A stretch of 10,142 nt of DNA. It comes from an uncultured Methanosarcinales archaeon. Its GTDB lineage: Archaea; Halobacteriota; Methanosarcinia; Methanotrichales; Methanotrichaceae. The translations under genes were made by a program, and so were the position numbers. Location of the stretch: contig CALMJN010000401.1 of assembly GCA_937864385.1 (NCBI GenBank), forward strand, positions 1-10,142, given 5' to 3'. Below the pieces are notes generated by a model. It worked only from the letters and a program-made list of their open reading frames with translations. It ran no database searches and was not told the origin of the DNA. Below are positions 1 through 10,142 of the stretch, piece by piece (position 1 is the stretch's first letter; every line of letters begins with the position of its first letter).

Positions 1-72
1 AAGGCCGTAAGAGGCCTGGAAGAGGGGGAGGGCGTAGGGCATGAATTCAAAAGAGGACGAGGAGATGAAGAG

Positions 73-1152
73 ATGACCTTGAGGCTGCGCATTGCCACAT
101 TTAATCTTATGACCCTGGACGATCGGCGAGAGCTGCGTCCAAGCCTGGAGGAGCGCATACCGATCCTGCGCCCCCAATTGGTTCGTCTGGATGCGGACAT
201 CTTATGCCTGCAGGAGGTTTACGGCCAGCATGAGCGGGGCAAAAAGATTCGCCTCACTGCCCTGAGCCGCCTCCTGGAAAACACCCCCTACGAGGGATAC
301 AGAAGGGTCACAACCATAGATCCGGGGACAAGAGAGGTCTCGGAGCGCCACAACCTGGTCATCCTCAGCCGATATGATATCTTGGAGCACGACCAGTATC
401 TGCACGAGTATGCACCGGCGCCCTGCTACAAGAAGGTAACCGCCGTGCCTGAGGAGAGCGAAGCCATGCCCATAACCTGGCAGAGGCCCATTCTGCATGC
501 CAAGGTAGGGCTTCCCAACGGCATGGTGGTGGATGTGATCAATCTGCATCTGAAGAGCCGCCGGCCTACCAATATCCAGGGACACAGACTCCCGGACAAG
601 AGCTGGAAGACGGCCTCGGGATGGGCGGAGGGTGTTTTCATCTCCAGTATGAAGCGCATCGGCCAGGCCCTGGAGACCCGCATTCTCATCGGCAAACTCT
701 TCGATGAGGATCCCTATTCCCTGATCGCAGTATGCGGGGATTTCAATGAGGAGCTGGATGAGGTATCCATAGAGGCCCTCCGGGGCGATGTGGAGAACAC
801 CGGCAATATGAATCTGGCCATGCGGGTCCTGGTGCCCACAGAGAGAAACGTCCCCGAGCCGGCCCGCTACTCCTTCCTTCACAACGGCAAGGGCAAGATG
901 CTGGACCATATCCTGGTCTCCAGAACCATGCTGGCCTACTTCCGGGGCACCGAGGTGCACAATGAGCTATTGCACGACACCTCCATGGTCTTTCCGGAGA
1001 GAATCTTCTATCCCGAGTCGGACCATGCCCCGGTCATTGCCCACTTCGAGCTGCCGGAGAAAAGGATCAAGCGGCAGACTGAGGAGGGAGAGGGAGCGGG
1101 AATGCCGGTGTATCAGGACAGGGCGGTGCAAGAGGCAATAAAGCAGGCCTGA
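73..1152 (+). CDS. Endonuclease/exonuclease/phosphatase (EEP) family hydrolase
   Basis: The 359-residue product carries the full DNase I-like EEP set in order: the TFN motif with Asn11, the metal-binding Glu48 in LCLQEV, NLVILSR at 94-100, the catalytic-type His159 in NLHLKSRRP, GDFN with Asp223 and Asn225, Asp278-His279 in MLDHILVSR, and the closing SDHAP with Asp317 and His318. The family is made of metal-dependent phosphodiesterases or phosphatases acting on DNA, RNA, phosphoinositides or sphingolipids; the substrate cannot be read from the sequence. There is no signal peptide or membrane segment, so a cytoplasmic enzyme is likely. The ATG at 73 is chosen because GAGGAG (59-64) lies 8 nt upstream and the EEP fold begins at once. 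The same frame stays open to the left edge of the window, so a longer N-terminus cannot be excluded. The last 30 residues are charged and lie outside the domain. No co-transcription with the next gene is evident: 150 nt with a promoter intervene. Confidence 0.88.
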   Translation: MTLRLRIATFNLMTLDDRRELRPSLEERIPILRPQLVRLDADILCLQEVYGQHERGKKIRLTALSRLLENTPYEGYRRVTTIDPGTREVSERHNLVILSRYDILEHDQYLHEYAPAPCYKKVTAVPEESEAMPITWQRPILHAKVGLPNGMVVDVINLHLKSRRPTNIQGHRLPDKSWKTASGWAEGVFISSMKRIGQALETRILIGKLFDEDPYSLIAVCGDFNEELDEVSIEALRGDVENTGNMNLAMRVLVPTERNVPEPARYSFLHNGKGKMLDHILVSRTMLAYFRGTEVHNELLHDTSMVFPERIFYPESDHAPVIAHFELPEKRIKRQTEEGEGAGMPVYQDRAVQEAIKQA

Positions 1153-1254
1153 TGAGAAGGGGCATTCCGGCTGCTTTAATCCAGATCCATTGCAGGTACA
1201 TAGGTCAGATGATCATCGTTCATTGCCACTTCATGGGAAAATTATTTGTAATAT

Positions 1255-8394: not shown

Positions 8395-8851
8395 CGCTCC
8401 TGGAGACGAGGAGGAGATCAGAAGGCTCCTGGCCGCTTACCAGCAATATCAGGCCCAGGCGGATGGAATCATGCGCCAGCTGAGCCTGACCCAACTGACG
8501 GCGGAGGGCCTGGAGAGGGCCTCTACTGCCGCGGATGCTCTGGACAGGGCAGAGGTTGGGCAGGAGATTATGGTTCCCATTGGGTCCGGGTCTTTTATCC
8601 ATGCCACCCTTGCCTCTAAGGAGAAGGTAGTCTTGAATGTGGGCGCAGGCGTTCACATAGAGAAGGATGCTTCCGAGGCCAAGGAGATCCTCAATGTCCG
8701 AAAGGCGGAGGTCCAGGAGGGCTCCAGAAAGCTCAATGAGGTTCTCTCCAAGATCGACCAGGAGATGCAGAAGATCCAGGCCGTAATGCAGCAGTTCGAG
8801 GAAGGCGCAGCGGCCCATCAACACAGTCTGGAGAGCCAGGGAGTTGTTTAG
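8387..8851 (+). CDS. pfdA: Prefoldin subunit alpha
   Basis: The 154-residue product has two coiled-coil arms (about 6-50 and 95-140, heptad-rich with Leu/Ile/Met and Gln/Glu) joined by a beta-hairpin segment at about 58-93. That segment carries the prefoldin alpha signature [18 protein letters not shown] and [18 protein letters not shown]. The alpha subunit dimerises at the centre of the jellyfish-shaped alpha2beta4 chaperone, which captures unfolded chains and hands them to the thermosome. Length is a little above the usual 140-150. TTG start; 8-nt overlap with rplX in front and 8-nt overlap with ftsY behind. The beta subunit is not in the window. Confidence 0.95.
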
Positions 8852-10016
8852 CCGCTTCAAGGAGAAGCTCTCCGGATTCAAAGAGGCTCTCTCCTCCAAG
8901 ATAGCAGAGAAGGTATCCCAGGCGGAGAATATAGCTGGAACGATAAACGGCAGACCTGACACTGCCGTGGCTGAGGATGAGAATGAAGTGCATGGCCTCC
9001 GGGCGGAAGCCAGGGCCATAAGTCCTCCGGCAGAAAAGGATACCGAGGTTAAGAGACCCTCAGAATCCCCCCAACCAACTCTTCCTGCTGGCTCCTCGGC
9101 TCAAGAAAAAGCCGATGCCAATAATAAGGCCAAAGGCCGCTTCTCCTTTTTAGAAAAGGCCAAGAGTCTGATCTTCGAGCAAGAGGTCATCCTGGAGGAG
9201 AAGGACCTGGAGGAGCCCATGTGGGCTCTGGAGATGGCCCTTATGGAGAGCGATGTTGCCCTTCCCGTAGCCGAGGAGATAGTGCGGGAGGTAAAGTCCG
9301 ATCTGGTGGGCAAGAAGAAGAAGATCGGTGCAGACACCGGGGCCATAGCCGAGCAGTCGCTTAAAAATGCCCTGATATCTCTATTATCCAAGAACCATCT
9401 GGACTTTGATGAGTTCGTTAAGGCCAAGGAAAAGCCGGTCAAGATACTCTTCGTAGGGGTAAACGGCACGGGCAAGACCACCAGCATCGCCAAGGTGGCC
9501 AGATACCTCATGAACCAGAACTACTCCGTGGTCTTGGCGGCAGGCGACACCTTCCGTGCCGGGGCCATAGAGCAGCTGGAGGTGCACGGCAATAACCTGG
9601 GCCTGAAGGTGGTAAAGCACAAGACAGGCGGCGATCCGGCCGCGGTGATCTTTGATGCCATAGAGTATGCCCGGGCCCACAACAAAGATGTGGTCCTGGC
9701 GGACACGGCGGGAAGGCTGCATACAAACATAAATCTCATGGATCAGATGAGAAAGATCGTAAGGGTGACCAAACCCGATCTGCTCATATTCGTGGATGAG
9801 GCCATAGCCGGCAATGATGCCGTGGAGAGGGCCCGCCTCTTCAACGAGTCTGTTCCCATAGGCGGCTCCATACTGACCAAGACCGATGCCGATGCCAAGG
9901 GGGGCTCGGCCATATCCATAGCCTATATCACCGGCAAGCCGGTGCTCTTTCTGGGCGTAGGCCAGACCTATCCCGATCTGGTGAAGTTCGAGCCGGAATG
10001 GCTGGTGGACCGGCTG
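8844..10016 (+). CDS. ftsY: Signal recognition particle receptor FtsY, C-terminus replaced
   Basis: Reading from TTG 8844 gives about 391 residues of FtsY: an amphipathic N-terminal start ([19 protein letters not shown]), a long acidic/Pro linker (about 30-95), the four-helix N domain (about 98-195), then the G domain. GTPase motifs are G1 [13 protein letters not shown] (205-217), G2 GDTFRAGA (234-241), G3 DTAGR (287-291), [15 protein letters not shown] (316-330), G4 [10 protein letters not shown] (345-354), and the closing [21 protein letters not shown] (371-391). FtsY docks the SRP-ribosome complex at the membrane and reciprocally activates GTP hydrolysis with SRP54. GGAG (8830-8833) is 10 nt upstream; the start overlaps pfdA by 8 nt. 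FtsY normally stops one to a few residues after this last motif, but here the frame stays open to the window end and changes identity at about 10000-10016. Confidence 0.93.
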
Positions 10017-10142
10017 ATGCGCAATCTCCTGGTGGACATCACCGGCAACACGCATCGCTCGGAGTTCTGCATCGACAAGCTCTACGCCCCCGGTTCGGCC
10101 AGCGGCCGCCAGGGCCTGCTGGAATTCCGCGGCTTCGAGATG
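9999..10142 (+). CDS. Fragment of a DUF2126 (transglutaminase-associated) protein fused to the end of ftsY
   Basis: From about residue 386 of the ftsY frame the sequence reads [39 protein letters not shown] and LLEFRGFEM. That is the strongly conserved [33 protein letters not shown] block of the large DUF2126 proteins found beside transglutaminases and alpha-E proteins, mostly in bacteria. The first part of this segment, WLVDRL, is also the end of FtsY, so the junction lies between 9999 and 10016. Codon use changes at once: all four Arg codons after the join are CGC, against 3 of 16 before it, and both Ile codons are ATC, while ATA outnumbers ATC 17 to 7 before it. No stop occurs before the window ends. 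It is probably a chimeric join, not a working fusion. Confidence 0.75.

Follow-up and report, generated by a model that had tools for sequence, protein, structure and literature searches.

The open reading frame that joins FtsY to DUF2126 at the right-hand end of this window is almost certainly an artefact: a chimeric join at a 21-mer that both genes can share, situated 123 bases from the contig end and representing no biological feature. The window, by which we mean the whole stretch of DNA that was analysed, is the entire contig C401 (10142 b) of an archaeal draft genome of 489 contigs and 2.26 Mb. We propose that a Methanothrix-type archaeal contig extends to the 3′ end of ftsY, where, inside 21 (at most 22) bases which both genes can carry, the sequence switches to a bacterial DUF2126 gene, the contig stopping 123 bases past the switch. 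The switch would have arisen outside any living cell, either where the de Bruijn graph branches at a k-mer of about 21 common to both genes or through a chimera among the reads or PCR products; the donor would have carried the 21-mer and have come from the same sample.

The frame begins with a TTG start at 8844 on the forward strand and remains open up to 10142, giving 433 codons without a stop that run off the contig end. Two protein families are present in it according to Pfam. SRP54_N (PF02881) matches residues 114–176 and the SRP54 GTPase domain (PF00448) residues 199–392 (E 2.2e-72, 243.3 bits against a curated cut-off of 22.7), so that both the N and G domains of FtsY are represented, and DUF2126 (PF09899) matches residues 383–433 (E 2.2e-27, 96 bits against a cut-off of 27). 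The occurrence of the SRP54 domains and DUF2126 in one frame is far beyond chance, and it bears out the statement in an earlier note on this DNA that DUF2126 follows ftsY without a stop. DUF2126, or putative amidoligase, is a family known in bacterial transglutaminase-family proteins, from which the present fragment differs in covering only positions 522–572 of the profile, that is, 51 of its 826 positions.

Three forward-strand segments can be distinguished. The first, at 8844..9998, is the genuine part of an archaeal ftsY, encoding the SRP receptor GTPase, and is recognised by PF00448 and PF02881, by its identity to a predicted FtsY protein (P0001) and by DNA matches. The second, at 9999..10019, is a tract of 21 bases that genes of both families can carry, with the codons for WLVDRLM, and is recognised by the presence of the same 21-mer in the ftsY of two relatives (L022 and L028) and in one bacterial DUF2126 gene (L035). 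The third, at 10020..10142, is a 41-codon piece of a bacterial DUF2126 gene and runs off the contig end; it is recognised by PF09899, protein identity and GC3. Because of the join, the frame from 8844 does not reach a normal FtsY C-terminus shortly after WLVDRLM; we nevertheless class the stretch as far as 10019 as ftsY.

The normal form of this gene is evident from its homologues. P0001, an FtsY of 397 aa predicted on other contigs, is identical to the window frame over 392 residues, through WLVDRLM, and ends normally five residues later; it represents a 90% cluster with 8 members and 7 contigs of up to 22,517 b, which are not necessarily from the same sample. In the window frame, by contrast, a foreign tail replaces the last five FtsY residues and the stop. 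Our homologue search scored 8000 candidates, of which 7967 were above the threshold, and the 120 listed are 77–100% identical to the window at a query coverage of 91% each, several of them carrying the database name Methanothrix. The expectation that ftsY should end within a few codons proved sound, the C-terminus lying 3 or 5 residues past the WLVDRLM position in 120/120 of these listed homologues, and the comparison with complete Methanothrix-type ftsY genes that the earlier note had recommended, which we ran on the same 120, found that all end normally and that PF09899 occurs in the domain lists of none (0/120 among the matches listed).

At the DNA level, the matches of the closest relatives stop at query position 1176 or 1179, equivalent to window position 10019 or 10022. 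We fetched 29 ftsY loci, in 26 of which the 3′ end is readable (L020, L027 and L032 are without a readable end). The base right after the codons for WLVDRLM (or L) is G in 26/26 readable loci compared with C in the window, and the stop in these loci falls 2 to 5 residues past the seventh codon. Inspected by eye, the flanks of eight relatives (L004, L005, L009, L010, L012, L016, L017 and L022) displayed no common downstream neighbour of ftsY; the genes 3′ of it seem to differ between relatives, and hence synteny gives no guide to what should follow here. The true continuation of ftsY was not found in the same draft genome when this was searched with 1500 bases of ftsY flank from the relative G017, although such an empty answer is uninformative.

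Two side observations concern the draft genomes themselves. One related draft genome, G014, contains two near-full-length ftsY matches (C54:1523-2686 and C84:3223-4392), both 87% identical to the window, a pattern that either gene duplication or mixing of genomes in the bin may explain. At its left end the present contig looks ordinary, with no chimera visible at window 1–1200; the alignment with G017 begins at base 1 and has 94% identity, and the ORF there is presumably endonuclease/exonuclease/phosphatase-like.

The DUF2126 fragment is foreign to the contig. As the earlier note had advised, the tail was searched against protein databases, and residues 386–433 (48 residues, comprising the shared tract and the tail) matched bacterial DUF2126 proteins at up to 98% identity among the matches listed, these figures being drawn from 120 listed out of 1121 proteins recovered by the tail-seeded search. 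For DNA comparison we kept the best 80 of at least 478 DUF2126 loci and used all 80 for counts of residues and tracts; judging from record titles, most of these best 80 are gammaproteobacterial. The donor organism was probably gammaproteobacterial too, and unrelated to the archaeon. No donor gene near identity was found among the best 80 of at least 478 genome loci, the closest (L100) sharing 108/123 tail bases, and plasmid records gave at best 79.9% identity, with 94% of the query covered. We considered a resident archaeal DUF2126 gene and rejected it, given that DUF2126 is present in 0/59 other related genomes and is matched only once in the source genome, at the contig-end fragment itself. 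A literature search on DUF2126 returned no paper.

The join can be placed closely. The earlier note was right that a segment is shared there, but this comprises WLVDRLM and 21 nt (9999–10019) and not WLVDRL and 18 nt, the foreign part beginning at 10020. Exact copies of the 21-mer are found in the ftsY of L022 and L028, where GGC follows, and Marinobacterium ramblicola (L035) has one in its DUF2126 gene, between CCC and CGC; among 117 loci the 21-mer is exact in these three and in three others that are the window itself, and hence in 1/80 DUF2126 loci (best 80 of at least 478). L028 belongs to G017, which ranks first among the relatives by DNA identity in both searches (92% for the final portion of the gene, and 94% in the search with the left end of the contig). 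The residue preceding Trp is Glu in the window, as in FtsY. Among the same best 80 of at least 478 DUF2126 loci this residue is Pro in 75/80, Phe or Tyr in 5/80 and Glu in 0/80, and where it could be read in the listed tail-seeded proteins (111/120) it is Pro in 109, His in 1 and Phe in 1. The window is therefore FtsY-like to the left of the tract and DUF2126-like to the right of it, which places the crossover within 9999–10019. Were the Pro codon of the donor CCA, as it is in 3/80 of these best loci (of at least 478), the shared tract would extend to 22 bases. A length of 21 is a usual smallest k of multi-k assemblers. The foreign tail amounts to 123 bases, and the tract and tail together to 144 bases, approximately one short read.

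Base composition also shifts at the join. We compared the tail with eight contig ORFs of our own choosing, cut into overlapping 41-codon windows (n=2183). GC3 is 0.902 in the tail against 0.688 in the eight ORFs, a level reached by 3/2183 windows, and GC is 0.65 against 0.56, a level reached by 23/2183. The switch in Arg and Ile codon choice claimed in the earlier note holds for Arg, where CGC accounts for 4/4 codons in the tail against 28/156 in the eight ORFs (P ~0.001 if codons are independent), but not for Ile, where ATC accounts for 2/2 against 84/159 (P 0.28, no evidence by itself). A synonymous-codon likelihood, calculated with the junction set three bases to the right of its proper place, failed to distinguish the tail, with 1709/2199 windows scoring as low or lower. 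Compositional features are side signs here; on the sequences compared, it is homology that decides.

It is conceivable, albeit very improbable, that the join is real, having arisen through illegitimate recombination at the 21-bp microhomology in an archaeal strain whose FtsY now bears a bacterial DUF2126 tail. The reading frame continues unbroken through the join, but this follows of itself, both genes reading the shared tract in the same frame; all of FtsY but its last five residues is present and the protein might still work, yet a normal-ended FtsY identical over 392 residues (P0001) exists on other contigs. A genuine recombination would also need the contig to break by chance 123 bases further on, the join would have to fall in a tract of about k-mer size, and the genome is without any other piece of DUF2126. 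We searched for a real fusion gene and rejected it, since no two-domain protein occurs among the 120 listed FtsY homologues and the 120 listed tail matches; FtsY marker motifs were likewise absent from the 111 testable of the 120 listed tail-seeded proteins. The normal-ended P0001, the lack of any listed fusion and the ending of the contig after 123 foreign bases agree with the earlier note in ranking recombination below an artefact. Its proposal of an assembly-type error at a short shared k-mer, with bacterial DNA, is supported by the normally ending homologues, the absence of a fusion, the count of 0/59 for DUF2126 and the position of the join on a tract that both families can carry. Within the artefact, and with its odds counted there, lies the sub-form in which the chimera was made in the library, by template switching or ligation, and not by the assembler. 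We hold this origin to be possible but somewhat unlikely: the tract and tail together are about one short read long and microhomology favours template switching, but nothing in the data separates a library origin from an assembler join.

The artefact resembles an interspecies chimeric contig formed at a shared k-mer, in that two unrelated genomes are joined close to the end of a contig, within a stretch that can be identical in both, and with a shift in composition. The available passages of PMC7299287 state that k-mers common to several genomes, chiefly of related species, or produced by sequencing errors can yield chimeric contigs, and that IDBA begins building its graph at small k; the case described there chiefly concerns related species, whereas an archaeon and a bacterium are combined here. 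The present join is a clear example of unrelated genes united across 21 bases close to the end of a contig in a draft genome, and it serves as a warning: automated gene calling would enter an archaeal FtsY-DUF2126 fusion, which studies surveying gene transfer or fused domains could accept at face value.
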